From: Polyangium fumosum
GTDB lineage: Bacteria; Myxococcota_A; Polyangia; Polyangiales; Polyangiaceae
Reading direction: 5' to 3'
Assembly (NCBI RefSeq): GCF_005144585.1
Contig: NZ_SSMQ01000028.1
Location: 62,001-126,000, forward strand
Length of the DNA: 64,000 nucleotides
Part shown: in pieces, positions 8,959 to 59,611 of the stretch
Layout: each line of letters begins with the position of its first letter
Numbering within the stretch: position 1 is the stretch's first letter
Position numbers and translations under genes: made by a program
Notes under the pieces: generated by a model
What the model was told of the DNA's origin: nothing
Seen by the model: the letters and a program-made list of their open reading frames with translations, nothing else
Database searches by the model: none

Positions 8959-11127
8959 TCAGGGGAACAACCAGCCGTACGTGGCGTAGGCGAGCGCGAT
9001 ATGGGTCTGCGCCCAGAACCTGTGGTAGGTGAAGGTCGGCGCGGGCCCACCCTTCAGATAGGCCTCGACCTTCGCCCAGTCAGGGTCCTGCTTGTATTTG
9101 GAGCGGATGCTCGCGAACGTCGAGCCGTTCTCGATGACGTCGCCGTTCGGCATCTTCCCCTTCCAGCCCGTGGGGAGATGCAGCGCGTCGTTGAAGCGCT
9201 TGTAGTCCTTGCGTGTCTCGATGTTGGAGAGCCCCTTCGGATCGCGGAACTTCGCCCACATCCGGTCGAGCAGCTCCTTGGCGAGCTTCTGCGTGTCCTT
9301 GTCGTTGGCCTTCGCCGCGTAGAAGGTCAACGTATGCACGAGCCCCGCGGTCGTCCCGACATCCGGCGTGGTGCTCGTGACCTTCACGTGCAGCCCTGCG
9401 TTGAACGTCTTGTCCGAGCCATTGAAGTTCTGCGTCTGGTCGTTCCAATCGAGGGAAGGTTGTCCCGTCCATTGCAACGACGATGGGATCTCGTACGTGC
9501 CATCCGGCTTGAGCTTCGTGTTCGCCTTGACCCAGGCCACCCATTTGTCGAGGATGACCTTCGCGCCCGCGTCGCCCGTCACGTAATAGTACTCGGCGAC
9601 GCGCTGCACCGACCAGACCTGGAAACCGAACCAGTCGTTGCTCGGCGGGTCCGAGAACACCGGCGCCGACTGGTAGGCCATTCCGTAGAACGTCTTCGCG
9701 TCCGCAGGCGGCGCGTCGTACCGGCCCTTCCAGCTATTGGTCGCGCCGCCGGCGATCCCGCCCTCGGCCGATTGGAGCCAGCGGTAGAACTCGATCTGGC
9801 GCCTCGCGCTCGTGGCCCAGTCGCCCGCTGCCTTGGGCGACTTTGGCCGGAGCGGAGCGAACTGGGCGAGCACATGGGCTGCCAGCGGGTTCTGATACCC
9901 CGAGTGGTTGTGGCTCGACCCGATGCGCCAAGACCAACCGCCCGAGCCGGGCGCCGCCCCACCCCACGCGTAATACCAGGAGAGCAGGTAGTGCGCCGAC
10001 GAATAATCCGAGGCGGCCGCGCAGCTCGGGCTCTTGCAAGGGATCACCTTGAAGTACTTGTCGAAGAGCGAATACCGAAGGTAATCGCCCATCTTCGCAG
10101 CCTTCTCGGTGTTCGCGTCGACGCTCGTGTTGCCTCCCTGCTCGTCCGCCCACTTCTTGGCCCAGTACATGGCCTGGACCGCGCGCGCGTCCGCGTCGGG
10201 CGCGTTCGTGTACTTCCACTGCTTCGCAAAGCCGGTCCCCTTCTGGAAGATATCGAGGAAGCCGTTCGGCCCGCCCCCCACGAACGCGTCCCAGGAGGGC
10301 TGCGGGATCGCCTCCCACACCGACTCCTCCGGGCCGCGCTGGAATGTATTGATGTACGCCCCCCGGCTCTTGCCGTCCCCTCGCTTGCCGAACCCGTAGA
10401 AATTGTCCACGTCGAGCAACCAGTGCATCCCGTAGATGGGCGCCGGCCCGTACGTGGTCTTGAGCTCCTCGCCGATCGGATCCACCCCGATCGGAATTCT
10501 GCTATCCAGCGCGACCGGGTAGTCTTGCGGCAGATCACCCTCCGGCGCATAGGTCGCCGCCTTGCGCGGCGAATACCCCTTGATCGTCGGCTGATCGGCG
10601 AGCGACGGGATGATGTAGTATTCGGCGTTCGCCCAGGCGCGGTCCAGGTGGCTCCAGTCCTTGGTGACGCGCCCGTACATGGCCTCGAGCCACATCCAGT
10701 AGCTATACGCTTCGGAAGTCGTCTCGTGCCCTTGATCCGGCGCCTCCACGAGCAGCGTCTCCACCGCGTGGTACGGGATCCCCTCCGGGCTGAAATAGCC
10801 GTTGGAGAGCTTGTGGATATCCGTCCACAACTCGAGGAAGTGATCGGTATAGACGTTGCCGGTATTCTTGACCGGCGGCTCCGGCGCGGCGGGAGGCGCG
10901 GGCGGAGGCTTCACCTCGTCCTGCGCAGCCACAGCCGGTTGTCCAGCGGCCCCCGCGGGTCCTGTCGGCCCCCCTGGGCTCACCGCGCCCGTTCCCGTGG
11001 GCTCGATGGGAACACAAGCCGCCATCACGAGGAGGGCGGCGGGCCCCAGCACGAGCGTCGAGGCAAACTTTTGTGTTCGTGCCGCACGGGCAGCCAGGGA
11101 ACGGAACATCGTCGAGCCGAACTTCAT
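8959..11127 (-). CDS. GH48 family cellulase (reducing-end cellobiohydrolase), lipoprotein
   Basis: A 722-aa secreted cellulase. '[20 protein letters not shown]', '[20 protein letters not shown]' and the [21 protein letters not shown] segment are hallmarks of glycoside hydrolase family 48, processive exoglucanases acting from the reducing end of cellulose; the Glu in 'VEAP' is the likely acid. The N-terminus ([10 protein letters not shown], basic region, hydrophobic run, 'VMAAC') is a lipoprotein signal with Cys38 as anchor. A Pro/Ala/Gly linker of about 50 residues leads to the catalytic domain. No carbohydrate-binding module or dockerin is present, unusual for GH48. Start ATG 11127 (a TTG at 11139 is in frame) has no strong ribosome-binding site. 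Single-gene unit. Confidence 0.93.
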
Positions 11128-11227
11128 AGGTTGCACCAATGGGGTTCAATTGGAAATCGGATGCCGCGCAGCCTATCGGCCGACCCACCGGGCGTCTAGG
11201 AAAATCAAAACGGCAAACTCGGAGGCG

Positions 11228-18200: not shown

Positions 18201-18635
18201 CTATCGCTTCCTCTCGGGGGACGTAGGGGCTGCTTCTGCGGCAAGCACGGGATCTTCATCGAGCGAGAGCACGCTTCGCGGCCCCCGCTCGGCCCCGCGG
18301 GAAAGGAACGTCGCGAGCGCGAGCGCCACCGAAGGACGCGGCGCGAGATCGGCGAGCCCGACGGGTTCGGCCGCGGGGGATTTGCGCATCTTCGGCGGCG
18401 CCTGCGCCGGGCCCGAACGATCGAGCGCGGGGTGGCGTGGGCGGGCGCCGATCGCGGCGCGCAGGCGGCGCAGCGGGTGCAAGGTGAGCTCTTCCCAGGC
18501 GGCGCGGATGGACGCGCGCTCGCTCTCGCCCGCGTCCTCGGCGAGCTCGCGCAGCCGCTCCGTGATGGCGCGCGGGCCCTCTTTCGGATCGAGGTCGAAG
18601 CGTTCGAAGGGGTTTTCCGGGGGGTGGTCGCTCAT
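18201..18635 (-). CDS. Small Hsp70-operon protein, possible degenerate J-like partner
   Basis: A 144-aa protein starting MSDHPPENPFERFDLDPKEG. The first 65 residues form charged helices ('AITERLRELAEDAGESERAS', 'AWEELTLHPLRRLRAAIG') with the size and feel of a J domain, but there is no HPD motif, so it cannot stimulate Hsp70 in the canonical way. The Pro/Ala-rich rest ends in a hydrophobic helix with low-complexity sequence. Its ATG overlaps the stop of the preceding 409-aa gene (ATGA), and the Hsp70 start is 3 bases after its stop, so all are translationally coupled. Confidence 0.65.
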   Translation of the reverse strand: MSDHPPENPFERFDLDPKEGPRAITERLRELAEDAGESERASIRAAWEELTLHPLRRLRAAIGARPRHPALDRSGPAQAPPKMRKSPAAEPVGLADLAPRPSVALALATFLSRGAERGPRSVLSLDEDPVLAAEAAPTSPERKR

Positions 18636-19861
18636 GACGAGATCCCGAGGAGCTTTTTGGCCTCGCCGAGGCGCTTCTTGGCCTCCGGGAGCCGCGTGGC
18701 CCCGGGGTAGAGCTGCTCGGCGCGGTCGATGAGGGCCACGGCCTTGTCGTGATCGTGGCGCGTGGGCGCGCGCGCGCCGGGCAGGAGGCGGAGCGCCTGC
18801 TCGCAGAGCGTGTTCGCCTTCATGAGCCGCGCGTTCCGGTGCGTCGGGCAGATCGCGATGGCCCGATCGAGCAGCTCCAGCGTCTCGCGCTCGGTGCGCA
18901 CGACGTCCGAGCGGAACACGAGCATCTGCGCCGCGCGGGCCGCGTACGCGAGCTTCGACGGATCGTCCTCGATACGCCGCGCGAGCGAGTCGACGAGCGG
19001 CGTGAGGGGGCTGATGATCTCCCGGAGCGCGTCCCAGCGGCTCGCGCGGTAATGGGCCCAGGCGAGCGGCGTGGCCTGCTCGATCGCGGCGTGCTCGACG
19101 CTCTCGTCCTCGCCGGACCAGCGCCACACCGCGACGAACCGCCCGAGCATCGCCGCGCCCTCCGCGGCGCTCGGCTCGCCCTTCGTGGTGACCTCGGCGA
19201 ACACGGCGAGGACGGGCGCGAGCGCCTCCTCGACGGCGACCGCGACGAGCGACGAGGCCCGGCGCGCCGCCCGCTCCGCGAGGGCCTCGGGGGCACGGGC
19301 GATCCGCGCGGCTTCCTGGACGCGTCTGAGTGCGACGAGCGCGCGTTGTGCGGAGGACGTGAGATCCCGCGCGCCGGTGCGCGCCCGCTCGCCGAGGTCG
19401 TCGATGCACCAGAGCGGAGCGTCGGCGAGGGCGCGATCGAGGTCCTGCCGCGCGAGCGCGCTGCCGGTGACGGCCTCGCCGAGGTCGCGGAGGTAGGTCT
19501 CTTCGCGGCCGAGGGCGAGCCAGGCGGTGATCGATCGGACGAACGCGTCGGGGGAGGTCGCCGGGAGGTCCGCGAGGGAGGCGTGGTGGAGGGCGAGGTG
19601 GTGGAGGAGCTCCGGGGGCGGATCGATCTGGCGCGCGGGTTCGAGGTGTTCGTGGAGGGCGTGGGGGTTGTCGGCGCGCGCGGCCTCGACGGCGTCACTC
19701 CCGCCGGGCAAACGCCGCAGGACGGCGCAGAGGCCGGCGCCGCGGGCCGGGGGGCGGACGTCCGGTCCGGCCTGGGCGCGGAAGAGGCGCTCGAAGGCGA
19801 TCTCGTCCGTGAGCCGCGCGAGCAGCGCTTCGTCCTCGTCTCGCCACACGGGAGGCATCAT
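18632..19861 (-). CDS. Helical/TPR-like protein, first gene of the Hsp70 operon
   Basis: A 409-aa protein beginning MMPPVWRDEDEALLARLTDE. The C-terminal third contains TPR-like pairs ('RAIAICPTHRNARLMKANTLCEQALRLLPG' split by 'HDHDKAVALIDRAEQLYPGATRLPEAKKRL'). The first two thirds are helical and rich in Ala, Arg and acidic residues, with no catalytic motif. It heads the operon and overlaps the next gene by 4 bases. A short copy of its N-terminal codons and upstream region is found at 31619-31713. No good ribosome-binding site; start 19861 or 19858. Confidence 0.75.
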   Translation of the reverse strand: MMPPVWRDEDEALLARLTDEIAFERLFRAQAGPDVRPPARGAGLCAVLRRLPGGSDAVEAARADNPHALHEHLEPARQIDPPPELLHHLALHHASLADLPATSPDAFVRSITAWLALGREETYLRDLGEAVTGSALARQDLDRALADAPLWCIDDLGERARTGARDLTSSAQRALVALRRVQEAARIARAPEALAERAARRASSLVAVAVEEALAPVLAVFAEVTTKGEPSAAEGAAMLGRFVAVWRWSGEDESVEHAAIEQATPLAWAHYRASRWDALREIISPLTPLVDSLARRIEDDPSKLAYAARAAQMLVFRSDVVRTERETLELLDRAIAICPTHRNARLMKANTLCEQALRLLPGARAPTRHDHDKAVALIDRAEQLYPGATRLPEAKKRLGEAKKLLGISS

Positions 19862-19887: not shown

Positions 19888-20000
19888 ACGGGCGGGAGCG
19901 GGGGCGGGAGCGGGAGCGGGAGCGGGAGCGGGAGCGGGAGCGGAAGCGGGAGCGGAAGCGGGAGCGGGAGCGGGAGCGGGAGCGGGAGCGGGAGCGGGGG
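19888..20000. repeat. GGGAGC hexanucleotide tract
   Basis: About 18 units of GGGAGC with a few GGAAGC and GGGGGC variants, between the stop of the borosin methyltransferase gene and the start of the Hsp70 operon. It is the 5' region of that operon. Read on the minus strand it is the same CCGCTC tract seen in coding regions at 2415 and 57712. Confidence 0.9.
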
Positions 20001-20054
20001 CGGAGTCGCCGCAACGGTACCGCGCGGAGGATCATCCGCGGGCGGGAGGCGCGC

Positions 20055-20846
20055 TTATCGGTCTGCCGGCTCGAACCCGAGCCAGGAGGCGGTGGCGGGA
20101 TCGATGCGGCTCTTGCGCACGGGGGGAATGTAGAGCGTCGAGGCTGGCGTGACCCTGGCTTCCGCGAGCTTGCCGAGGCGCAGCCGCTCGATACGCGGCG
20201 CGCAGCCAATGTAGATCGCGGCCTCGTAGATCGTCACGGCGTGGTCGGCAGGGTATTCCTCGCAGAGCCGCGCCACGAGGAAGGGGAGCTTGTGGTTGCT
20301 CGCGCCTTCGCGACGGTACGTGTTGTCTCCGAACGACCCGATCTGCCAGAGCACGAGCGCCGTTGTGGGATCGATGCGCTTTCGATGAAGCACGAAATGC
20401 GACGCCTCGTAGCTCTGCATGCCCTGGTGACCAGGATCGATGCCGAGGTCGGCGAACAGGCAATCCTCCGCCGAGATCGCTGGCAGCATGGTCGCCGGAT
20501 ACCCCTCGTCACGCGCGCGCTCGATGGCCAGGTGCCCCGGATAAGCGAACACGCCCGGATGCCCGTAGAGCACCACGCACGTCCGATGGCCCCCCCTTAC
20601 CGAGTCAAGAATGCGGTCCACCATCGCGTGATACGTCTCTCCACGCGGCTTGCCCTCCCCGTAGAGCACCGTGAGCGACTCGGCCGACGGCGATAGCTCC
20701 TTGATCACACGCTCGGCGACGAGATCCGCGACCACGTAGAGAACCTTGTCCGACGCCTTGATCCAGGCGATCGCATTTCCCGTGAGATGCTCGGTCGTCC
20801 TGATTCCGGTCCCCACGACGACGAGCGAGCCATTCCCTTCGATCAT
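20055..20846 (-). CDS. Borosin-type peptide-backbone alpha-N-methyltransferase (split type)
   Basis: A 263-aa member of the tetrapyrrole-methylase superfold that matches borosin methyltransferases such as SonM. Signature stretches are 'GSLVVVGTGI' (SAM site, residues 6-15), 'LYGEGKPRGETY', 'VLYGHPGVFAYPGHLAIERA', 'AISAEDCLFADLGIDPG' and 'LVLWQIGSFG'. Tyr62, Arg68 and Tyr72 have the Tyr-x5-Arg-x3-Tyr spacing of the borosin catalytic site. Borosin enzymes methylate main-chain amides of a ribosomal precursor; this one lacks the C-terminal core that fused fungal enzymes carry. ATG 20846 is chosen because GGAGG lies 6 bases upstream (20858 is the alternative). It follows the kinase gene by 73 bases on the same strand; the precursor-like gene lies beyond the kinase. 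Confidence 0.9.
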   Translation of the reverse strand: MIEGNGSLVVVGTGIRTTEHLTGNAIAWIKASDKVLYVVADLVAERVIKELSPSAESLTVLYGEGKPRGETYHAMVDRILDSVRGGHRTCVVLYGHPGVFAYPGHLAIERARDEGYPATMLPAISAEDCLFADLGIDPGHQGMQSYEASHFVLHRKRIDPTTALVLWQIGSFGDNTYRREGASNHKLPFLVARLCEEYPADHAVTIYEAAIYIGCAPRIERLRLGKLAEARVTPASTLYIPPVRKSRIDPATASWLGFEPADR

Positions 20847-20919
20847 CCATTCCTCCATCCCTCGCCCCGACGTCGAGGCACGTATGATCATCCGATGAGA
20901 GCCGGCGACAGCACCCGGG

Positions 20920-23871
20920 CTAGTCCTGGCAGCCGAGCGCCGTCGCGCGTTGCGCCGCGGCCTTCGCGGTCGTCGACGCGTCCGCCTGGCCCCACCGCCG
21001 CAGGACCACCTTGTACGCCGCGCACGCCTCCGCCTTCTCCTTGAGCCTCTCGCGCACGACGCCGAGGCGGTACGTCGCAAGGGTGTGCCTCAGCGGGGCG
21101 TCGAGCGCCGTGCACGAGCGCGCCGCCGATTCGAGGCGGGGCAGCGCCTCGTCGTACCGACCCGCGAGGAACGCGACCTCCCCGAGCACCGCCGTGACCA
21201 TCGAGACGTCTGCCTGCGGATAATGCAGGTGCGGGCGCTTCAGCACGCTCCCCGCGAGCGCATCGCGGCCCTGCTGCGGGGTGCTCGCGGTCGCGGCCGT
21301 TCCTATCAGCCAGAGCACGCTCGGATCCGCCTCCTTGCCCTGCCACTCACGCTCCCACCCCGCGCGAGCCGCCTCGTACGCCGCCGCGTCCAGCCGTCCC
21401 GCCCGTTGTTTGGCCTTCAAGAGCAATGCCTGGGCATCGTCCCAAGGCCTCCACATCAAAGGACGACCCCACGCAGCTCGCTGCGAGAGGAACTGCTCGG
21501 CCACCTCCCCCGCCTTCCGGTCCTGCCCCATCTCCCAATAAAGCCGCACCAGCGCGAGCGCCGGCACGGCGTGCTTCTCCTCCTGCGGTTCGCCGATGAT
21601 CTCCCGATCGAAATCCTTCGCGAGCCGCTCGGCCTCGTCGAAATGGCCAGAGAGGATCGCGAGGTTGATCCGGAGCTTCACCGCCGCCTCCGGCATGCCC
21701 GCCTCGCGGAACCGCCGGACCGCCTGATCCACCGCCGCGCCCACCGCGCTGAGCGGCTGGCCCGAAGCCTCCAGGGCCACCGCCAGCTCCTGGTACGCGA
21801 ACGGCGACGCCTGCTCTTTCGTGATCCACCGGCGCGCGTCCGGCTCGAGGCGGCTGCACCTGCCCATGAGCTTCTGGAAGCGCAGCCGCTCGATGACGCA
21901 GTCCGTCGCCAAGGGCGCCAGCTCCACGCAACGATCGAGCGCATCGATCGCTTCGGGAATGCGCTCGTCGCGGAAGAGCGCCAGCGCGCGCGCTTGCCAG
22001 CAGTCCGCATACCGCTGATCCAGCTCGAGGCAGCGATCCACGAGCGCGAGCGTGTGCTCGGGCGAGGCATCCGGCTGCACCGCGTGGAGCAGCAAGACGA
22101 GCTCCGCGTCGCCAGGGAAGCGCCGCGTGGCCGCTTCGAGCCGGGCGGTCGTCGCGGCCTGATCGGGCGGATCGCGCTGGATCAGCGGCTCGAACGCGTC
22201 GAGCAGCACCTGGTCCCGCGCCGGCATCGTCGCGCGCAGCTCCACCGCGCGCTGGAACTCCGCGCGCGTGCTCGTCGTCTTGCCACGAAACCGATCGATC
22301 ACCGCGAGCCGCAGATGAGCCGCCCCGAGCGTCGGGTCGAGCTTGGCCGCCCTCTCGAACGCGTCGTACGCGAGCCCCCAGGAGGCGTCGCGGATGCTCT
22401 GCAATCCCTGGCGATAGGCCGCGAGCGCCTCGGGGCTCGCGCTCGAGGGCAGCTCGAGCTCGGTGACCGCGGTGGGCGTCGTGGACGGCGCCGCCGACGC
22501 CGACGCCACCGGCTGCGCCGCCGACCTGCGGCGCAGCCGCGACACGATGCCCGTGGAGAGGACGGCCAAGCCGGTGATCGCGAGCGTCACCGCCGCCACG
22601 AGCTGCCACCGACCCTGCACCGACGCCCGAAGCGTGGGCCCGACCGCCACGGCCGTCGGCGACTCCACCGTGTTCGCCAGCGGCGGGCGCTCGGGTGGTG
22701 CCGGCGCCGGTCTCTCGATCCGCACCGAGGGCGGCTCGAAGGGCTTCGCGCGCTTGCCCGTGACCGGCGAGGGCGACCGGATCGTGTTCATCGGCGCGCT
22801 GCCCGCCTCGGGCCTCGGCGTGGCGGAGCGAGACGTCGAGGCCGCGAGCGGGCGAGGCGCTTCGAGCGTCTCCGGTTCGTGTCCGACCGCGGGCGCGCCC
22901 GCGCGCGTCGCCGAGGGCGCGTTCGGGCCCTCCTCGGCATCCGCGTCGACGATACGCACGACGTCGGGGATGGCGAGAAACTCGCCCGTCACGAACGGTA
23001 CGAGCGTCTCGATGACGTGGTCCATCGACGGGAAGCGGTCGGCGGGGCGCTTCGACACCGCGCGGCGCAGGGTCCGCTCGACCGTGGCCGGCACGATGCC
23101 GTCGAGCGACGGCGGGTCGTCGGCGAGGATCGCGGACAGGAGCCGCACCCCATCGAGGCCCGGGCCGAAGGGGACCTCGCCCGTGAGCAGCTCGTACGCG
23201 AGCACGCCCCAGCCGAACTGGTCGATGCGCGCGTCGACCGCGTCGCCGCGGAGCTGCTCGGGCGCCATGTACGCGGGCGTTCCCACCATCATCCCCTCGC
23301 CGGTGAGCGTGTCGCTCTTGGGGTTCGAGGGCGGATCGAGATCGTCCTCGCCCGGCGTGGACCCGCGCGTGGAGAGCCCGACGCGCATCCTGCGCGCGAT
23401 GCCGAAGTCGAGCACCTTGATCGCGCCGTCGTCGCGAAGCATCACGTTCTCGGGCTTGATGTCACGGTGGACGATGCCCTCGCGATGCGCCGCCGAGAGG
23501 GCCCGCGCGACATCGACGAGCCAGCCGAGCCGGCGTGAAGAGGTCGTGCCGGCCGCGATGAGCTGGCGGAGCGAGACACCGTCGACGAACTCCATCGCGA
23601 GGTACGGCGCGCCATCCAGCTCGCCGATGTCGTAGATGGCGACCGTGTTCGGATGGCTCAACGCAGCGGCGGCGCGCGCTTCGCGGAGCATGCGGCCCTC
23701 GGCGCGCTGCCAGGCCTCCGGCTCCGCGGTGCCCTGCTTGCGCAAGAGCTTGAGGGCGACGCGGCGTTCGAGCCGCGTGTCGCGCGCCTGATACACGTCG
23801 CCCATCCCCCCCTCGCCGAGGGGGGCTTCGATGACGTAACGATCGACCGTATCGCCTGGGCGCAGGCGCAT
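20920..23871 (-). CDS. Membrane Ser/Thr protein kinase with TPR sensor domain
   Basis: A 983-aa PknB-type kinase. The kinase domain spans about residues 12-290: Gly-loop 'LGEGGMGDVY', 'VALKLL' lysine, 'HRDIKPENVM', 'DFGIARRM' and 'GTPAYMAPEQ'. Next come a Pro/Arg-rich linker, one transmembrane helix ('WQLVAAVTLAITGLAVLSTG', about residue 430), then some 500 periplasmic residues of TPR-like repeats such as 'WGLAYDAFERAAKLDPTLGAA' and 'AIDALDRCVELAPLATDC'. It starts 156 bases after the stop of the borosin precursor-like gene and ends 73 bases before the methyltransferase. Kinases of this type are very common in myxobacteria, so a link to the borosin genes is suggested only by position. Confidence 0.92.
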   Translation of the reverse strand: MRLRPGDTVDRYVIEAPLGEGGMGDVYQARDTRLERRVALKLLRKQGTAEPEAWQRAEGRMLREARAAAALSHPNTVAIYDIGELDGAPYLAMEFVDGVSLRQLIAAGTTSSRRLGWLVDVARALSAAHREGIVHRDIKPENVMLRDDGAIKVLDFGIARRMRVGLSTRGSTPGEDDLDPPSNPKSDTLTGEGMMVGTPAYMAPEQLRGDAVDARIDQFGWGVLAYELLTGEVPFGPGLDGVRLLSAILADDPPSLDGIVPATVERTLRRAVSKRPADRFPSMDHVIETLVPFVTGEFLAIPDVVRIVDADAEEGPNAPSATRAGAPAVGHEPETLEAPRPLAASTSRSATPRPEAGSAPMNTIRSPSPVTGKRAKPFEPPSVRIERPAPAPPERPPLANTVESPTAVAVGPTLRASVQGRWQLVAAVTLAITGLAVLSTGIVSRLRRRSAAQPVASASAAPSTTPTAVTELELPSSASPEALAAYRQGLQSIRDASWGLAYDAFERAAKLDPTLGAAHLRLAVIDRFRGKTTSTRAEFQRAVELRATMPARDQVLLDAFEPLIQRDPPDQAATTARLEAATRRFPGDAELVLLLHAVQPDASPEHTLALVDRCLELDQRYADCWQARALALFRDERIPEAIDALDRCVELAPLATDCVIERLRFQKLMGRCSRLEPDARRWITKEQASPFAYQELAVALEASGQPLSAVGAAVDQAVRRFREAGMPEAAVKLRINLAILSGHFDEAERLAKDFDREIIGEPQEEKHAVPALALVRLYWEMGQDRKAGEVAEQFLSQRAAWGRPLMWRPWDDAQALLLKAKQRAGRLDAAAYEAARAGWEREWQGKEADPSVLWLIGTAATASTPQQGRDALAGSVLKRPHLHYPQADVSMVTAVLGEVAFLAGRYDEALPRLESAARSCTALDAPLRHTLATYRLGVVRERLKEKAEACAAYKVVLRRWGQADASTTAKAAAQRATALGCQD

Positions 23872-24027
23872 GGCGTCATGGTATCGCGAACTCGTGACGA
23901 TTCGCGAAGATCCGCTCTCGATGGTTCCTGGACAACCTTGTGGGCAACCTTGGGAGACGCGCGACGTGCGATGTGGGGCACGTACGCCAACTCTTCATGA
24001 TTCCCCTCGCCGCTCGATCAAGGAGGA

Positions 24028-24540
24028 TCAGGAAAACTGGCGGCTGTCCGGGGAGCGGACCGATATCGGCGCGCGTACGGATGCGGGCCCGGTATCCGGA
24101 GAGCGTGACGACATCGGGCCGCGTACGGAGTCCGGAGAGCGCGTGGACAACGGGCCGCGCACGGACAAGGGGTTGGGGGGATCGGAGGTTCGGCTCGACA
24201 AGGGCGCACGGGTCGAGAGGGGCGCGCGGGTCGACAGGGGCGCGCGGGTCGACAGGGGCGCGCGCGTGGACAACGGGCCAGCGTCGGAGGCGCGTGCCGC
24301 CATCGTGGGGCAGCCGAGCAGGTACGGGCACGACCACGGCGAATGCATTGAGGCAGCATCCGGGTTGTCGGCCCGAAGGCGCTCGAAGATCGCTTGCGGT
24401 TGCCCCGAGTGTACGGCCTCTCGATCGACATCCGAGACGCCCGCGATGCGCATGGTCTCGTCAGGATTGAGGTAAAACCTCGCCAACAAGGAGTGGTCGA
24501 GGGCCATGTCCGCAAAAAACGCGAGGAGGGACTGTGTCAT
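24028..24540 (-). CDS. Borosin precursor-like protein with repetitive core region
   Basis: 170 aa. Residues 1-57 form a helical leader: 'LLAFFADMALDHSLLARFYL', 'NPDETMRIAGVSDVDREAVH' and 'SGQPQAIFERL'. This matches the pattern of the SonA borosin-binding domain (FF..L..D..L...Y..NP...MR..GL.....AV..G). Residues 60-85 include a hydrophobic WSCPYLLGCPTM patch. Residues 87-170 consist of short Arg-ended units: PLSTRA five times (last PLSSRT), then SPDSVR, GPMSSR, APISVR and similar, ending SPDSRQFS. The tail is encoded by 18-bp DNA repeats that keep the frame. ATG 24540 has AGGGAG 8 bases upstream and a palindrome at 24559-24572. It is the likely substrate of the methyltransferase at 20055; which segment is the core is not certain. 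Confidence 0.75.
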   Translation of the reverse strand: MTQSLLAFFADMALDHSLLARFYLNPDETMRIAGVSDVDREAVHSGQPQAIFERLRADNPDAASMHSPWSCPYLLGCPTMAARASDAGPLSTRAPLSTRAPLSTRAPLSTRAPLSSRTSDPPNPLSVRGPLSTRSPDSVRGPMSSRSPDTGPASVRAPISVRSPDSRQFS

Positions 24541-24558
24541 CTGTTCGCTCCCTACTAA

Positions 24559-24572
24559 CTACGATCTCGTAG
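24559..24572. promoter_or_regulatory. Palindrome upstream of the borosin precursor-like gene
   Basis: CTACGA-TC-TCGTAG, two perfect 6-bp arms with a 2-base centre, 18 bases before the ATG of the precursor-like gene and overlapping the expected start region of its transcript. A possible operator; no known family site recognised. Confidence 0.4.
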
Positions 24573-24950
24573 GTGGTGCTGGCGGCGGAGCGTGGCGTAC
24601 GCGAAGCGCGTAGAGAATACCTGCCAGCAGCCCGAGGATACGGGTCTCTCCAGGCCGTCGCAAGCCCGGGAGAACGGCGTCGCGCTTTCTTTTCGCGCGG
24701 TTGTTCTCAGGGCGCGCCCGTTTGCGTCAGAGCGCTGTCGGATCTGCGTGCTTCTATCCGCGAGCGCAGGATGTCTTCTGCTTGGCAGGACGCATCCCTC
24801 GGGGGACTTGCGTGGGAATCGAGCTTGTCATCGAATTTTCTTGCACTGTGAGGACATGCGTGCTGCAGGGCTGGAGGCCGCGTGAGGCGCCCGGGGAGGA
24901 GAGGCGTGACGCGCTGGCTCGATGCTATCCACGAACGGGGACGTCACCTC
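24573..24950. other. Intergenic stretch without a convincing gene
   Basis: Upstream of the borosin precursor-like gene. Short open frames exist in several phases, but none has the third-position GC bias, a ribosome-binding site and a recognisable product. Local GC is lower than in the neighbouring genes. Probably promoter and leader sequence of the precursor-like gene plus spacer before the hexanucleotide tract. Confidence 0.5.
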
Positions 24951-24951
24951 G

Positions 24952-25103
24952 GGCGCGGGGGTGGGGGCGGAAGCGGGGGCGGAAGCGGGAGCGGGGGCGG
25001 AAGCGGGAGCGGAAGCGGAAGCGGGAGCGGGAGCGGAAGCGGGAGCGGAAGCGGAAGCGGGAGCGGGAGCGGAAGCGGGAGCGGAAGCGGGAGCGGGAGC
25101 GGC
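24952..25103. repeat. GGGAGC/GGAAGC hexanucleotide tract
   Basis: About 25 hexamer units in which GGGAGC and GGAAGC alternate in short blocks, starting as GGGGGC units. Non-coding: it lies between the precursor-like gene (minus) and the epimerase stop at 25423. The remaining 320 bases to 25422 show no gene that I can support. Confidence 0.9.
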
Positions 25104-25422
25104 AGAGAGATCTGGTTGTGTACCGCTGTTGAGGAAGGGGGTAGGTCGAGTGCCGGATGGGCCATGGGCCTTGCCAGGTGTGACGGCGGCCATGGCGGAG
25201 CCCGAAGTGCGCGGGCACGATGCGGTGGCGAAATGTCGCGCTCATACCGGATGCAATTCGCGAAGGATTCGCCCGTGCAGGGCTCTCGGCGCGTGGACCG
25301 CCAATGCGTAAGCGTGTGCCCCTCGGGCAACCCTCGCTGCCCTTCCCAAAAGCGCGCCGGCGAGAGCAGCCCTGATGCGCCGCCTTCGGTGGACTCGTGT
25401 GGTGCGAGGGGCGGCTACCAAA

Positions 25423-27164: not shown

Positions 27165-27695
27165 CGCGAGGTTCGTCGCGCGTCGAAAGGTCACGCTCGC
27201 GAGCGTGCAGCCTCCGCCTCGAGGCCGAACGGATCGAGCGGCCCGAGTGGCACGATGCCGTTCGGATTGAATGCTTTGATCTTGAACCGACCCGCAGAAC
27301 CGCAGCGCGGGAATCTGGCGATGATGGGAGCCGGAAACAGTAGCGGGAGCGGGAGCGGGAGCGGGAGCGGGAGCGGGAGCGGGAGCGGGAGCGGGAGCGC
27401 TGGCGGGAGCGGGAGCGGGAGCGCTGGCGGGAGCGGGAGCGGGAGCGCTGGCGGGAGCGGGAGCGGGAGCGCTGGCGGGAGCGCTGGCGGGAGCGGTGTT
27501 CAGGGGATCCCGCTCGGGGACGGCGAGCGTACCGTCGTGCTCGGCCTCTTCAAGGCCATGCCGTGCTCGCCGTCCTCGCAGCACTGCGTGCTGCTCCGGG
27601 CGGCTCCGCGCGGTGCTGCGCAGCCTTGAAGAGGCCTGCGCGCGACGGTGTGGGACGGGGGTCCCGGCGATTGGGTCGTCGGGCGGAGGTTCTTT
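27165..27695. other. Intergenic region with hexanucleotide tract
   Basis: No supported gene. The middle (27340-27493) is the GGGAGC tract. The flanks have short open frames that are only extensions of the repeat into Gly-Ser or Ala-Pro polymers. The last 45 bases contain the ribosome-binding site GGAGG for the four-helix-bundle gene. Confidence 0.6.
27340..27493. repeat. GGGAGC tract with GCTGGC higher-order units
   Basis: About 25 hexamers. In the second half GCTGGC interrupts after every two to three GGGAGC units, making an 18-24 bp higher-order repeat. Same hexamer family as 19888 and 24952. Confidence 0.9.
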
Positions 27696-28270: not shown

Positions 28271-28870
28271 GTGAGCAACGTAGACGTCCATCCTGAATCC
28301 GCCAAGAAACCTACACTCCTTCCCTCGCCCGAGGCTTCCTTCGCGCGGTTTTACCGCGAATGCCGGGGGTTCGTCCGCTCCGTCCTTCGCGCCCGCGGCG
28401 TTTCGGCTCGGGAGGCCGACGATCTCGTGCAGGAGGTCTTCATGCTCGCCTGGCAGCGCCACGATCGGCTCGCGCTCGGCGACCAAGCACGACCCTGGCT
28501 CTACACGGTCGCGCTCTACATGGCCTCGAACCATCGCAAGCTCGCCCGGCACCGAGTCGAGGACCTCACGGCCGATCTCCCCGAGCCGCTGGTCTTTCCG
28601 CGAATGATCCAAGCCATGGAGGCGACCCGCCTCCTGGCGAGGGTCCTCGGCAAGCTCGGCCGGAAGGTCGCTGCGGTGCTGATTGCGTACGAGATCGAGG
28701 GGCGCTCGATGGTGGAGATTGCCCGCAGGCTGCGGATACGGTTGAAGACGGCCTACGCGCGGCTGCATCTAGCGCGGGAAAAACTGGTCAGTCTCGCGTC
28801 GAACGGCCTGGAATGTCGACATCGATTGCCCCTCGGGAGCTTGGGTCGAAGGATTCTGGCCAGCGAGTGA
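28271..28870 (+). CDS. ECF sigma factor
   Basis: A 199-aa sigma factor. Region 2 'FYRECRGFVRSVLRARGVSA' and 'READDLVQEVFMLAWQRHDR' are typical, followed by 'PWLYTVALYMASNHRKL'. Region 4 is recognisable ('MVEIARRLRIRLKTAYARLH' helix-turn-helix). No anti-sigma gene is adjacent. GTG 28271 precedes 'SNVDVHPES' with GGAG upstream. Its last 83 bases overlap the end of the convergent NACHT-pentapeptide gene, so the two transcripts are antisense at their 3' ends. Confidence 0.88.
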   Translation: MSNVDVHPESAKKPTLLPSPEASFARFYRECRGFVRSVLRARGVSAREADDLVQEVFMLAWQRHDRLALGDQARPWLYTVALYMASNHRKLARHRVEDLTADLPEPLVFPRMIQAMEATRLLARVLGKLGRKVAAVLIAYEIEGRSMVEIARRLRIRLKTAYARLHLAREKLVSLASNGLECRHRLPLGSLGRRILASE

Positions 28871-31544
28871 GTGGATTGTAGACGGCGCCTCTGAGGTACG
28901 CATCGCTGAGGTTCGCACCGCTGAGGTCTGCACCGCTGAGGTCCGCACCGCTGAGGTCCGCATCGCTGAGGCCCGCATCGCTGAGGTCCGCACCGCCGAG
29001 GTCCGCACCGCTGAGGTCCGCGCGGCTGAGGTCCGTGCGGCTGAGGTACGCACCGCTGAGGTTCGCACCTCTGAGGTTCGCACCGATGAGGTTCGCACCT
29101 CTGAGGTTCGCACCGATGAGGTCCACACCGATGAGGTTCGCACCTCTGAGGTTCGCACCTCTGAGGTTCGCACCGCTGAGGCTCGTACCGCTGAGGTCTG
29201 CACCTCTGAGGTCCGCACCGCTGAGGTCCGCACTTCTGAGGTCCATACCTTCTAGACTAACGCCCTCTGCGCTGATCCACGGCGCACCCAATCGCACCCA
29301 CTCCTGACGCATCCAGAACCATCCCAGCATGGAACGCAGCGCCGGCGTCTCGACCTTCAATGGTTCCAGTCCATGAAGTGAGCATCGGATCGCCAACGCA
29401 GCATGTCGAAGGGGAACGCGCTGGTCATCTCGCCATGACCGTTCCTCCTCGTGCTTGCCCTCGTCAAAATCCGGCCGTTCATCCACGAAGCAGCCCTCCG
29501 CCCAACCCCCAAGGTTCTTTCTTTCGTCCTCCTTCCACTGGACGCCGTTGAGAATGGCCATCAAGAACTCGAAGCTGCGGTTGTCTTCTTCGAGCAACAC
29601 CGCACCATAAAGTTCACGTTCCAGGCTCCTCTGCCTCGATTCTCTGCGCTCCTGGAGGATCGCCCGCAGCCTATCCGCCCACCAGCAAGCCGCCAAGAAC
29701 TCCCCGAAGCTCTTGTGGCCGAACAGGATCACGTGGTTCTGATCCCGCAAGTCTGCCTGCAACACGAGCATGGCTCCCATGCGGATCATCTCCTGGACCT
29801 GCGGCTCTCCGCGGAGGTCGAGCACCTTCCGGAGAAGGTGGTTGACGTCCTGCAAATCGAGATGCTCGCCCCGCGCTTCACGCCTCCGATGCTCCCACGC
29901 AATACGCGACATGAGCCACAACATCGCATCCTCCAGCGAGGCATCTTTTCCGATGTTGCCAAGGTCGCGCAGCTTTTCCCGGAGTTTCTCTGATGCGTCC
30001 GCCACACGAGGATGCCGATCCCGGTCGTGCTTGCACTTCCCGGCGGCGATCTGCTGGAAGAAATGCTCATAGATCGCTACCTGGCTCGTGTCCCCCTGCT
30101 CAATCCGAGTAGGACCCCAGGTGACGGCGCTCATGAAGAGCAGGATGGGCGTCGTCCCCAGCTCCAAAAGTTTAGCGTTCGTTAGCCCCTCGACCGTGAC
30201 GGGCTCGCTTCCGCTGATTTGGTTCCAGCGATCAAGCCAAGCCCCGATCTGATCCTCCTTCCGGAAGGACTGCACATCAATGATGGGGATGCCCCCGAGC
30301 TTGTCCTCCGACGGCAACGCGCCCTTTCGCGAGAACACCACCACCCGATGCCGATCACTCGTCGCCCCCTTCAGCTCCCGAAAGAGCTGCTCCACCTCCG
30401 TGTGCGACAACGCAACCTCGTCCAGCCCATCCACGATGTACACGACCCGCATCGTATCGGCCGGCATCGCCAAAGCATCGTCACTCCGCAGCAGAGAGAG
30501 CCCGATCGCCTCCGCCTGGTTGCGAAGCGCCTCCCGGACCGTCGCAGCAAAGGACTCGCGCTGAAAGTCTCGCGCGCACTTGATGAAGATTGGAAGCACA
30601 AGCTCAGCGGACGGTTGGTCCACGCCCCGCATGTACGTCTGCGCCCACCCAAAGGCGAGCATCCGCGCGGTGAGGGACTTCCCCATACCGAAATCCCCAC
30701 GCACGATGACGATGGGATGCTTCCCGAGCAGGTCGCCGATGAACTCGCGCAGGGGCTTGCGCGTTTTTCCCCAAACGCCATCCGGCTCCACATACATGAA
30801 ACCAAGCGGCATCGTCGGCACGCCCGGCGTGGTCGTCCCGAAGACGTGCCGCCTGTCCGAAATCGACCCATCCTCCATCAACCGCCGCCGAAGCTGCCGC
30901 GCGCGATCCTTGTCGACCTCCAGCAAAAACCGCCCCAGCTCCCGCCCTGCCCCCGTCACCAGCAGCTCGGCATACGCCATCTGAAACGCGCCCTCGAACT
31001 GGAGCCGCGCCCCCTCGCGCCGCATGTCGAGCAACGCCGTGTCCTCGCCCCCCTCGAACCGCCCATCGGCGAACGCCGTATACAACGCCTGATAGATCGG
31101 CGTGGCCATCGGATCGGGATGCAACGCATGCATCGCCGAGAGTCTCTCCGCCGCGGCCCGCTGCTCGAATTCCGGCAGCAGCCACCCCAGCGCGAGCCGA
31201 AGCCGCGTCTGGATCTCCTCCTCCCGCGCGGCCTTCTCGTTCGACCGGAAAGCCCGATGGAGCCAGGGCCGCTCCTGCAACCCGGGCGCCATCCGCTCGT
31301 CCCCCGCCCAGTGCTCGTAGAACGCCGTGCCGAACGCCTGGAGCACGAGCGCCGTATGCAGCGCCGTCATCCGTGTCCGCGGCTTGGCCGTCGCCACCCC
31401 GTGCACGGCACCGAGGGCCTCGAGGACGGCGCTGATCGCGCTGACGTCCGATTCCTCGAAGCCCTGCTTGGCCTCGCCAAGGTAGCTGAACGCCCCCGCG
31501 GCGAAGACCTTGCCGAGCATGGTGACGATCGTGATGGGTTCCAT
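28788..31544 (-). CDS. NACHT NTPase with C-terminal pentapeptide repeats
   Basis: A 918-aa STAND-type protein. An N-terminal helical domain (1-240) is followed by a NACHT-like NTPase: Walker A 'VRGDFGMGKS' (281-290) and Walker B 'VVYIVDGLDEVAL' (367-379). A helical middle leads to about 25 pentapeptide repeats (A(D/N)LxG, about 762-886) forming a right-handed beta-helix, and a 32-residue tail. Bacterial NACHT proteins often act in phage defence; the pentapeptide helix would be the sensor or effector arm. That role is inference. ATG 31544 with GGAGAG upstream is preferred to the open extension to 31685, which runs into duplicated DNA. The repeat section is low in complexity but in frame. Confidence 0.88.
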   Translation of the reverse strand: MEPITIVTMLGKVFAAGAFSYLGEAKQGFEESDVSAISAVLEALGAVHGVATAKPRTRMTALHTALVLQAFGTAFYEHWAGDERMAPGLQERPWLHRAFRSNEKAAREEEIQTRLRLALGWLLPEFEQRAAAERLSAMHALHPDPMATPIYQALYTAFADGRFEGGEDTALLDMRREGARLQFEGAFQMAYAELLVTGAGRELGRFLLEVDKDRARQLRRRLMEDGSISDRRHVFGTTTPGVPTMPLGFMYVEPDGVWGKTRKPLREFIGDLLGKHPIVIVRGDFGMGKSLTARMLAFGWAQTYMRGVDQPSAELVLPIFIKCARDFQRESFAATVREALRNQAEAIGLSLLRSDDALAMPADTMRVVYIVDGLDEVALSHTEVEQLFRELKGATSDRHRVVVFSRKGALPSEDKLGGIPIIDVQSFRKEDQIGAWLDRWNQISGSEPVTVEGLTNAKLLELGTTPILLFMSAVTWGPTRIEQGDTSQVAIYEHFFQQIAAGKCKHDRDRHPRVADASEKLREKLRDLGNIGKDASLEDAMLWLMSRIAWEHRRREARGEHLDLQDVNHLLRKVLDLRGEPQVQEMIRMGAMLVLQADLRDQNHVILFGHKSFGEFLAACWWADRLRAILQERRESRQRSLERELYGAVLLEEDNRSFEFLMAILNGVQWKEDERKNLGGWAEGCFVDERPDFDEGKHEEERSWRDDQRVPLRHAALAIRCSLHGLEPLKVETPALRSMLGWFWMRQEWVRLGAPWISAEGVSLEGMDLRSADLSGADLRGADLSGTSLSGANLRGANLRGANLIGVDLIGANLRGANLIGANLRGANLSGAYLSRTDLSRADLSGADLGGADLSDAGLSDADLSGADLSGADLSGANLSDAYLRGAVYNPLTRWPESFDPSSRGAIDVDIPGRSTRD

Positions 31545-31618
31545 GGGTGGACGCTCTCCATTCACCGGGTTCTGAGCGGCGGCAGCATGGCTCGCGCACG
31601 GGCGTGAGGGCTCGTGGC

Positions 31619-31713
31619 CAGCAACGCCTCGGACTTGTCTCGCCACACGGGAGGCATCATCCGCGGGAAGGGCGGATGCGGTCAAGACGAGCGGGGGCGG
31701 GAGCGGAAGCGAA
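31619..31713 (-). repeat. Duplicated 5' end and upstream region of the Hsp70 operon
   Basis: The segment around 31636-31704 repeats 19838-19907 with few changes: the codons for 'MMPPVWRD' then 'EALLA', the ATGATG start, the upstream GCGGATGCGGTCAAGACG and a short GGGGGC/GGGAGC tract. Here the coding part is broken off after about 15 codons. The remnant sits directly upstream of the NACHT gene on the same strand and may supply its promoter. Confidence 0.75.
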
Positions 31714-52876: not shown

Positions 52877-53086
52877 CTAGGTGGCTGGTGTTTTTCGAGC
52901 CGCGACCACCACAGCTAGCGCATGTTCACGCAGCGGCCGCGCTGCAGGTAGCGTGTCCGCTGCGAAAAACACCAGCCACCTAGGTGGCTGGTGTTTTTCG
53001 AGCCGCGACCACCACAGCTAGCGCATGTTCACGCAGCGGCCGCGCTGCAGGTAGCGTGTCCGCTGCGAAAAACACCAGCCACCTAG
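52877..53086. mobile_element. MITE-like element, tandem duplicate of 107 bp
   Basis: Two identical copies (52877-52983 and 52980-53086) share one CTAG. Each begins CTAGGTGGCTGGTGTTTTTC and ends with the exact inverted sequence, a 21-bp terminal inverted repeat. The interior contains GCAGCGGCCGCGCTGC, a near palindrome. CTAG ends shared between copies fit a 4-base target of the IS5/YTAR type, though no transposase gene is present. The element ends 12 bases before the ATG of the YceI-like gene. A short relative is at 45454. Confidence 0.85.
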
Positions 53087-57529: not shown

Positions 57530-59611
57530 ATGCCCGCACCTCCCAGGCCCAGCTCCCCGGCGGTAGCTACCGCCGCTCCGGCAGCGCCTTCGCGCGCTCC
57601 GAGCAGCGGGGCGCCCGCGCCCGCCGAGCCTGCGCCGACACCTGAGGCCGAGTGGGAGGTCGAGCTCGGCGCGACGCTCGCAGGTGGATTCAACGCGCCG
57701 CCCATCCCGGCGCCCGCTGCCGCTGCCGCTGCCGCTCCCGCTGCCGCTGCCGCTCCCGCTCCCGCTGCCGCTCCCGCTCCCGCTCCCGCTGCCGGTACCG
57801 TTCCTTTTCCCGCTCCCCTTCCCGCCTCCGCGCCCCCCGCGCCTCTGCCAAACCCGGGCCGCACGTCGGCCCCGCCGCTCCCCTTCATCGCGCCTCCGCC
57901 ACCTCCTCCGCCCGCGGCCGTCTCGGCCGGGCGAAGCTCGTCGCCGGGCATGGGGGCGCCGCCGGGCATGAACGGGGAGCTTCGGCGCTCGTCGTCGCCG
58001 AGTTTTCCCGGGGCGCCGCCGCAAGGCGCCGAGGCGCTGCGCCGTTCGGCGTCGGGTTTGCCCGCGGTCGTCCCGCCGGGGCACGACCCGCTTCGCCGCT
58101 CGTCCTCGGGCCTCGCCGCCGTCACGCCGAGCATGCTCGAAGCGCAGCGCCGCTCCTCGCCGGGCATGGCCTCGCAAGGCGACGGCGCGGCGGCGGGCCC
58201 TGTCGCGTACGCTCCTGGCGACATCATCGGCGGCAAGTACCAGCTCCAGCGCGTGCTCGGCCAGGGTGGCATGGGCGCCGTGTGGGTCGCGCGGAACCTG
58301 AGCCTCGACGCGGACATCGCGCTCAAGCTCATCCGCCGCGATCGCGCCACCGAGGAGGCCTCCGCGCGCCTGCTCACGGAGGCGCGCGCCGCTGCGAAAC
58401 TCGGCCATCCCGGCATCGTGCGCGTCTTCGACTTCGGACAAACCGAGGTCGGTGATCCCTACCTCGTGATGGAGCTGCTCACGGGCGAGTCGCTCTCCGC
58501 CATCCTCGCGCGGAAGAAACGGCTCGCGCCGAGCGTCGCGCTCCAGACGCTCTTGCCCGTCGCGGCGGCGCTCGCGGCGGCGCACCTGAAGGGCATCGTC
58601 CATCGGGATCTCAAGCCTGACAACGTCATGCTCACGACGGACGAGTCGGGGAAGATCGTGCCCAAGTTGCTCGACTTCGGCATCGCGCGCGTGCTGCGCG
58701 ACGACGTCGAGCGGCATGTCACGATCGCCGGCGAGGTCCTCGGCAGCCCCGACTACATGTCTCCCGAGCAGGCCCGCGGCGAGGCGGACATCGATCATCG
58801 CACCGACGTCTGGACCTACTCGGTCCTGCTCTACGAGACGCTCACCGGCCGCCGCCCGTTCGACGCGCCGAACTACAACGCGCTCATCGCGGCCATCGTG
58901 GCGAACACGCCGATGCCCACGCATGCGTTCGGCACGGGCGACGCTGCGCTCTGGGCGATCATCGAGCGCGGCCTCGCCAAGGATCGGAGCGCGCGCTGGC
59001 AGTCGCTGCGCGACATGGGCGTCGCGCTCGCGGGCTGGGCGCTCGAGCGCGGGATCCAGCAGGACATCTCGGGGTTGTCTCTCCAGAGCGAGTGGCTCGC
59101 GCCGAAGATGCGCCGCCTGCTCACGGTGCAGCCGGTGGACGTCTCGGGCTTGGTCGCCGCGCGCGCAGCAGCGAACGCGGCCGCGCCGCCGGTCGCGCCG
59201 CCGGTCGCGCTGCCCGTCACGCCTTCCGCGCCGGGCCTCGTGCTTCCGGGCGTCGTGCGTGATGCGAACGATGCGGCGGAGCGGAAACACCTGCGCGGCG
59301 GATCGAACCGGAAGGTGCTGTTCGCCGTCGGCACGGCGCTCGTGCTCGTCGCTTCGTTCTTCGTGGTGCGTGCGCTCCTCTCCGAGCCTGCTGCGCCTGC
59401 GGGCGTGCCTGCTGCGCAGACCGAGGCGCATCCTGCGCCGCCGCCTGCGCCCGCGCCCATGCCGACGCCCTCGGCCACGTCCACGACGACGGCCGAGCCG
59501 CAAGCGCCGCCGACCCCAACTGCAACTGCGACGACAAAGACGACGCCTACGCCCGTGCGAACGACGCAGCAGAAAAAAGCGCCCCCCGTCCCCAAGAACA
59601 TCCAGTTCTAA
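57530..59611 (+). CDS. Ser/Thr protein kinase, Pro/Ala-rich N-terminus
   Basis: 693 aa. About 200 residues of low-complexity Ala/Pro/Ser come first, with CCGCTG/CCGCTC hexamers in frame and Arg-Ser-Ser segments. The kinase domain is complete: 'IIGGKYQLQRVLGQGGMGAV', 'IALKLI' (Lys), 'VHRDLKPDNVML', 'LLDFGIARV', 'GSPDYMSPEQ'. A single transmembrane helix ('KVLFAVGTALVLVASFFVVR') and a Pro/Thr-rich tail end the protein. Located between DUF2169 and VgrG, it may regulate the T6SS as PpkA does; inference. A GTG at 57482 is also in frame. Confidence 0.9.
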   Translation: MPAPPRPSSPAVATAAPAAPSRAPSSGAPAPAEPAPTPEAEWEVELGATLAGGFNAPPIPAPAAAAAAAPAAAAAPAPAAAPAPAPAAGTVPFPAPLPASAPPAPLPNPGRTSAPPLPFIAPPPPPPPAAVSAGRSSSPGMGAPPGMNGELRRSSSPSFPGAPPQGAEALRRSASGLPAVVPPGHDPLRRSSSGLAAVTPSMLEAQRRSSPGMASQGDGAAAGPVAYAPGDIIGGKYQLQRVLGQGGMGAVWVARNLSLDADIALKLIRRDRATEEASARLLTEARAAAKLGHPGIVRVFDFGQTEVGDPYLVMELLTGESLSAILARKKRLAPSVALQTLLPVAAALAAAHLKGIVHRDLKPDNVMLTTDESGKIVPKLLDFGIARVLRDDVERHVTIAGEVLGSPDYMSPEQARGEADIDHRTDVWTYSVLLYETLTGRRPFDAPNYNALIAAIVANTPMPTHAFGTGDAALWAIIERGLAKDRSARWQSLRDMGVALAGWALERGIQQDISGLSLQSEWLAPKMRRLLTVQPVDVSGLVAARAAANAAAPPVAPPVALPVTPSAPGLVLPGVVRDANDAAERKHLRGGSNRKVLFAVGTALVLVASFFVVRALLSEPAAPAGVPAAQTEAHPAPPPAPAPMPTPSATSTTTAEPQAPPTPTATATTKTTPTPVRTTQQKKAPPVPKNIQF
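57712..57815. repeat. CCGCTG/CCGCTC hexanucleotide tract inside a kinase gene
   Basis: In-frame Ala/Pro tract of about 17 hexamers inside the kinase gene, the coding-strand counterpart of the intergenic GGGAGC tracts elsewhere in this window. Length change in steps of six would keep the frame. Confidence 0.85.

Follow-up and report, generated by a model that had tools for sequence, protein, structure and literature searches.

A probable split borosin locus with an intervening protein kinase gene and a conserved repeat tail in Polyangium fumosum

Introduction

Does a three-gene locus of Polyangium fumosum specify a borosin of the split type, which part of its precursor would be methylated, and why is a protein kinase gene found between the genes for precursor and enzyme? 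The locus was noticed when a 64,000-nucleotide stretch of contig NZ_SSMQ01000028.1 (positions 62,001 to 126,000), here called the window, was interpreted from its letters alone, and we refer to that first interpretation as the sequence-only reading. We addressed the questions it raises computationally. Split borosins, their leader and their enzyme are already known, as set out in PMC8429565, PMC11395268 and PMC11285071, and at the time of the description of SonM none of the split borosin pathways had been linked to a final natural product (PMC8429565).

Organization of the locus

The locus occupies positions 20055-24540 on the minus strand, and the coordinates, strand and gene order of the sequence-only reading hold. 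In the order of transcription it consists of a predicted borosin precursor gene (borA-like, 24028..24540, 170 aa), a gene for a Ser/Thr protein kinase (20920..23871, 983 aa) and a gene for a methyltransferase (20055..20846, 263 aa), separated by 156 and 73 bp; GGAGGA stands directly 5' of the methyltransferase ATG. Judged by its sequence, this three-gene unit very probably serves backbone N-methylation of a ribosomal peptide. The explanation we hold with considerable confidence is a split borosin in which leader and core would share one protein and the enzyme would be separate, a short core being methylated, the tail acting as a follower and the kinase being a dedicated partner. The split arrangement had been proposed at the outset, and it is backed by the sequences, the predicted fold of the leader, the catalytic residues and the distribution of precursor genes described below.

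The trio forms a block of ~4.9 kb whose surroundings are unrelated among three genomes of the genus. Nucleotide comparison delimits it at 20037..24921 against locus L029 (94.8%) and at 20038-25002 against locus L030 (93.8%); the flanks are unrelated except for simple repeats, with mostly ~50% under forced alignment. We identified neither a protease nor an exporter within it; export and a final product we infer rather than observe. The gene 3' of the enzyme (18632-19861) encodes a 409-aa product without a Pfam match at E<=0.001, and a single chance-level match at E<=1.

Hexanucleotide arrays of the GCGGGA type lie just outside both block ends, at about 19892-20003 and 24967-25104, and further ones at 2418-2530, 27342-27496 and 57713-57825. 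That such arrays help to move the block is only a guess, because the pattern is absent from L029 and the one array in L030 is located elsewhere.

The methyltransferase is a member of the borosin family

When the methyltransferase was compared with the sequences of the PDB (phmmer, E<=0.01), 26 matched and 25 of these were borosin sequences, with E values from 3.6e-63 (SonM) to 2.5e-46 (an OphA variant); the 26th and last was a uroporphyrin methylase at 0.007. The search against borosin families that the sequence-only reading had proposed thus came out in its favor, and a generic tetrapyrrole methylase is ruled out by the same distribution of matches. Pfam placed the protein in its superfamily only (PF00590, 5e-20), and no NCBIfam model matched at its cut-off.

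The motifs named at the outset, YGHPGVF, AISAEDCLFADLGIDPG and Y62-x5-R68-x3-Y72, are all present. In an alignment with SonM, the methyltransferase of the type IV split borosin of Shewanella oneidensis (PDB 7ltc; PMC8429565, in part), the window enzyme is identical at 121 of 257 aligned positions, and Y58, R67, Y71, Y93, F99, E146 and W166 of SonM are conserved. The available part of PMC8429565 assigns Y58, R67, Y71 and Y93 to the active site and describes F99 and W166 as lock residues; their counterparts in the window enzyme are Y62, R68, Y72, Y94, F100 and W167. Unlike SonM, the window enzyme has an Arg at the position of Q178, and its loop corresponding to Y58-R67 is three residues shorter. 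The methyltransferase of the fused fungal borosins OphMA and dbOphMA is a homolog as well (E about 1e-47 to 6e-53), but enzyme and core are fused there and separate here. By family membership, then, 20055-20846 on the minus strand encodes a SonM-type borosin backbone (alpha-N-) methyltransferase, whose activity is predicted.

Four types of locus in the genus

The enzyme was found in 10 of the 183 genomes of the order, with 21 matches, and in 11 of 377 genomes drawn from the phylum. All 21 neighborhoods were inspected, with genes called by a simple purpose-made gene finder. Sixteen of the matches are in six genomes of the genus, and each of these 16 enzyme genes has a leader-bearing precursor beside it.

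We defined four types of locus, A to D, by gene order and the enzyme tree. A-type loci (the window, L029 and L030) have the order tailed precursor, kinase, enzyme, and are found in three of the six genomes of the genus. B-type loci, one in each of the six genomes, have a short precursor, the kinase and the enzyme, followed by at least one related kinase; in L035 the contig ends after the first of these. The five C-type loci have the precursor directly before the enzyme with no kinase between, and the two D-type loci (L041 and L042) have the order enzyme, TPR-like protein, precursor. The enzyme tree joins A and B as sister groups (98/96) and places C next (91/96); A- and B-type enzymes share 59% identity. 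Among the five matches outside the genus, L038 has a clear precursor and L043 a weak one (E=0.0017), and no precursor was found at L039 or for either enzyme match of L040.

A TPR-like protein of ~370-420 aa directly follows the methyltransferase in L041 and L042, and also in L039 and L040. Its TPR assignment in the D-type loci is indirect: the L042 protein scored below cut-off and the L041 protein matched no TPR model, but a clear TPR protein of L039 is homologous to each of them. The C-type precursors (L031, L034, L036 and L037) end in aromatic-rich sequence, such as NYNYPYYPNDTGETV and TIYYYSSYPAECAHKV, quite unlike the A- and B-type cores.

A predicted borosin-binding leader in the precursor

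The SonA-like leader pattern described in the sequence-only reading does not reach significance when the window protein is searched by itself (E=0.21 against SonA). It does with a profile of 11 precursor relatives, for which seven SonA sequences scored between 4e-7 and 7e-7, and the predicted fold is in agreement; the profile comprises the 17 aligned precursors minus L031-18907, L032, L033, L035, L041 and L042. The same profile gave weak matches to the clasp region of OphMA (E 0.065-0.11) and to gallate dioxygenase (E 0.13), which we take to carry the LigA region. PF07746 (LigA) was matched by 5 of the 11 members, at best at 1.4e-5; the window precursor had no match in Pfam, PF07746 included.

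The first 62 residues of the window precursor were searched against the inspected loci and retrieved 14 other frames at E<=1, or 13 distinct ones, as L027 and L030 are the same contig. All six B-type precursors, and the C-type ones with a single exception among five, scored 3e-7 to 1e-5, and the L038 precursor 0.022. A profile of 14 of these whole frames recovered four unused ones, L031-11690 (4e-17), L028 (8e-6), L042 (1e-5) and L041 (1e-4), the L028 match being the N-terminus of a fused Flavihumibacter protein; further matches were L027 and, at 0.0075, a frame of 49 aa that overlaps one of the L031 precursors.

AlphaFold predicted five helices within residues 5-58 for the leaders of the window and L027, with a mean pLDDT of 86.9 in the best model and 67-72 in the other four. 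Foldseek returned 30 PDB chains for the leader model, of which 25 were SonA, including all of ranks 1-14, at a best E of 0.53, and a second structure comparison gave SonA a Z of 6.0 and placed SonA in 9 of 10 entries. Each of these structural values is weak taken alone, but because they coincide with the profile match at 4e-7 we regard the assignment as firm. Residues 1-58 (24367..24540, minus strand) are thus the predicted borosin-binding domain of the precursor encoded at 24028-24540.

A chance open frame was also considered for the precursor and is ruled out by the related leaders beside 16 of 16 enzyme genes of the genus and by the codon-position pattern of its tail, given in the following section.

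Given the homology to SonM and SonA, we propose that the helical N-terminal domain of the precursor would dock on the methyltransferase dimer, and that the enzyme, with SAM as methyl donor, would methylate backbone amides in the short putative core behind the leader, at about residues 66-77.

A putative short core and a conserved repeat tail

The sequence-only reading had seen a repeated core in the precursor. The repeats are real: an 18-bp unit is present in 4.6 copies at 24191-24272 and a 36-bp unit in two at 24095-24165, and direct reading of the tail counts 11 S[TSV]R units. Their assignment to the core, however, is not supported by alignment. Each of the six B-type precursors closes with ERGGPASAPWNCP plus 4 to 6 more residues; at the same place the window precursor and its two orthologs have AASMHSPWSCPY(L/M)LGC, followed by 93 additional residues. 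The segment aligned with the B-type core end is HSPWSCPYLLGC, residues 66-77 (24310..24345, minus strand). Because the aligned B-type precursors stop just after the short PW[NS]CP segment, which is near their C-terminal end (SAPWNCP), the APLSTR repeats are best read as an added tail. The putative core would therefore be a short, mostly hydrophobic stretch at about residues 66-77, PWSCPYLLGC, as we infer from this alignment.

The repeat tail proper, rich in Pro, Ser, Thr and Arg, covers residues 89-170 (24031..24276, minus strand). In a model of the full-length protein, residues 71-170 have block means of 42-51 and no secondary structure, and the tail is predicted to be disordered. Its amino acids are under strong purifying selection. 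Between the window and L029 the tail differs by 20 substitutions, distributed 5/0/15 over the codon positions and changing 3 amino acids; against L030 the figures are 19 substitutions, 5/1/13 and 4 amino acids. When the same substitutions were placed at random, the mean number of changes was 13.5 (L029) and 12.9 (L030), and none of 2000 trials was as low in either comparison, which, together with the codon-position pattern, rules out a non-coding minisatellite. The leader is under weaker constraint (0.024 and 0.19 of random trials as low), and residues 63-88 have 4 and 5 substitutions (0.70 and 0.10 of trials), too few to show selection. Over the three pairs, pN/pS was 0.09, 0.14 and 0.40 for the tail, 0.50, 0.39 and 0.18 for the enzyme, and 0.44, 0.52 and 0.50 for the kinase; as the three orthologs are close relatives, these estimates cover one short stretch of evolution. 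We suggest that the tail would be a conserved, disordered follower behind the core.

A different protein with 202-aa frames in L049, L050 and L052, from three genomes of the genus, has a Pro/Ser/Arg tail end (PPSLRGPVSARAPTPATVRIPITPRSP) that resembles the precursor tail. The tail-like segments in these three loci and in L051 scored E 7e-5 to 1e-3 and are composition-biased.

Repeat precursors in a second lineage

In other myxobacteria, family f15 combines a borosin-leader precursor with a kinase gene directly before it in all four genomes inspected (G426, G253, G511 and G496). Five of 30 genomes had a match in the f15 search, and the fifth, G494, had a weak match without a leader start. The f15 kinase has a C-terminal FGE domain (in L058, PF00069 at 6e-25 and PF03781 at 6e-27, with DWG replacing DFG). 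The enzyme follows the precursor in G426 and G496 and lies on another contig end in G253; in G511 the contig ends. The precursor of L058 (G426) contains 23 VVYAA in 309 aa, and tandem repeats of the MVYGA, MVYAAQ and IYASQPA types are present in L078 (G496), L077 (G511), and L079 and L059 (G253). From their sequences, these look like multicore borosin precursors.

Could the window precursor be multicore as well, with its repeats as the main substrate, many APLSTR-like hexapeptides being methylated and perhaps cut at the arginines? The strong selection on the tail amino acids would fit, as would the f15 precursors, in which long tandem repeats of the VVYAAG, MVYGA or IYASQPA type come soon after a borosin leader. 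We nevertheless consider this doubtful: a short core aligned with the B-type core sits between leader and repeats, no loci other than the three of A type showed the tail, and Pro, Ser, Thr and Arg predominate in the repeats, in contrast to the tested borosin cores, which PMC11285071 describes as primarily hydrophobic. Methylation of the short core, with the repeats as a follower, remains the reading we prefer. The conserved tail and the multicore-like f15 precursors may widen the range of substrates that borosin enzymes need to process, and both kinds of precursor are at hand for trials of N-methylated peptide production.

A kinase gene fixed in A- and B-type loci

That a kinase gene stands between precursor and enzyme, unlike in the SonMA pair, had been recognized from the sequence alone, and the observation extends beyond the window: the order precursor, kinase, methyltransferase recurs in all nine A- and B-type loci, so the kinase is a fixed component of these loci and no chance insertion. 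The protein matches PF00069 at 8e-41, and its VALK, HRDIKPEN and DFG motifs are intact. It contains a single hydrophobic segment, and TPR models match above cut-off in the C-terminal half behind that segment. A search with the C-terminal 544 residues, in which each of 107 candidates was scored, found six places in the genome at E<=1e-10. The window locus accounts for one of them and the second borosin locus for four; the sixth is at C179, with no borosin gene found in the 17 kb around it. Five of the six copies in borosin loci do not amount to five independent events, since four are in one cluster. We propose that the kinase would be a dedicated partner which regulates production of the peptide or its precursor, or responds to one of them; the f15 family, with a different type of kinase before a borosin precursor in four of four genomes, was counted in favor of this explanation. 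A kinase family that travels with enzyme and precursor would offer a handle on the function and control of these peptides.

The rivals to this role are not all mutually exclusive. One is that the kinase phosphorylates Ser and Thr of the precursor tail, adding phosphate besides N-methyl groups or exerting control by phosphorylation; its motifs are intact, its adjacency is fixed, and the tail is disordered and rich in Ser, Thr and Arg. The B-type loci, however, keep the same kinase beside precursors without a tail, so the tail is not the general reason for the kinase, and we think this role unlikely.

Equally improbable to us is that the kinase is a bystander, a signaling gene caught between pathway genes and kept by inheritance without a function there. 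Kinases are abundant, with at least 104 kinase-domain matches in the genome; the C-terminal family occurs beyond borosin loci and, with up to 7 candidates per genome scored, was found in 57 of the 183 genomes, against 10 of 183 for the methyltransferase; and the C-type loci, 5 of the 16 in the genus, have no kinase between the genes. Against this stand the concentration of five of the six family members of the genome in two borosin loci (four of them in one cluster), the order of the trio, kept throughout the divergence of A- and B-type enzymes to 59% identity, and the order of the A block, kept in unrelated surroundings. Outside the genus, kinases close to borosin genes (L038-L041) were not counted as evidence, because kinase matches reached the upper limit of the count in 9 of 11 genomes and these kinases may be chance neighbors.

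Borosin and kinase could also be a signaling pair, in which the N-methylated peptide or the precursor would be the ligand of the TPR half of the kinase and borosins of Polyangium would feed a Ser/Thr phosphorylation pathway. This is suggested by the TPR kinase between precursor and enzyme genes in 9 of the 16 loci of the genus, by the separate TPR-like protein in two more (L041 and L042), and by L064, the one B-type cluster scanned to its end, which continues with a GAF-SpoIIE phosphatase. We regard it as quite improbable, and slightly more so because no TPR model matched in L041. No homology was detected between the C-terminal half of the kinase and the separate TPR-like proteins (hhalign probability 1.2).

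In L064, the second borosin locus of the genome, the phosphatase gene after the kinases is followed by those for a 303-aa protein without a Pfam match, a 518-aa frame and an FGE-domain protein. Frames similar in size are present in L068 and partly in L069 and L070.

Comparison with known systems

Types V-X and type 0 of the borosins were reportedly defined by Imani 2022, Cho 2022 and Lee 2024. The locus described here resembles SonM/SonA in its separate 263-aa methyltransferase with the catalytic residues kept, and in a precursor with a predicted five-helix borosin-binding leader and then a putative short core; it differs in the kinase gene between precursor and enzyme and in the repeat tail of ~90 residues behind the core. 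The term kinase occurs in the available text of PMC8429565 solely for a cloning reagent. As in class 3 borosins (PMC11395268, in part), leader (BBD) and core are in one protein and the methyltransferase is separate; the figure legend of that paper gives neither a kinase nor a repeat tail, both of which are present here. Type VIII split borosins (PMC11395268, compared by description only) share a long segment after the potential core, about 160 aa there, but about 90 residues, repetitive and predicted to be disordered here.

A search by titles and the beginnings of abstracts, with the main genome-mining papers outside its range, returned no report on kinases in borosin loci or on Polyangium borosins, and in the literature so covered we came across neither a gene order that includes the kinase nor such a conserved tail of repeats. 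The TOMM system, in which a Ser/Thr kinase is presumably encoded near a RiPP precursor in myxobacteria, offers a parallel with different peptide chemistry. The window kinase matches the TOMM system kinase/cyclase model (TIGR03903) at 134.5 bits over residues 36-320 only, that is, over the kinase part and not the whole protein, far below the cut-off of 705.75 bits.

Other features of the window

A gene at 8959-11142 encodes a glycosyl hydrolase of family 48 (PF02011, 3e-291), which we take to be a cellulase family. At 28788-31682 lies the gene for a NACHT domain protein whose C-terminal pentapeptide repeats fall within a 15-bp array, and at 52877-53086 a 103-bp unit is present in two perfect copies head-to-tail.
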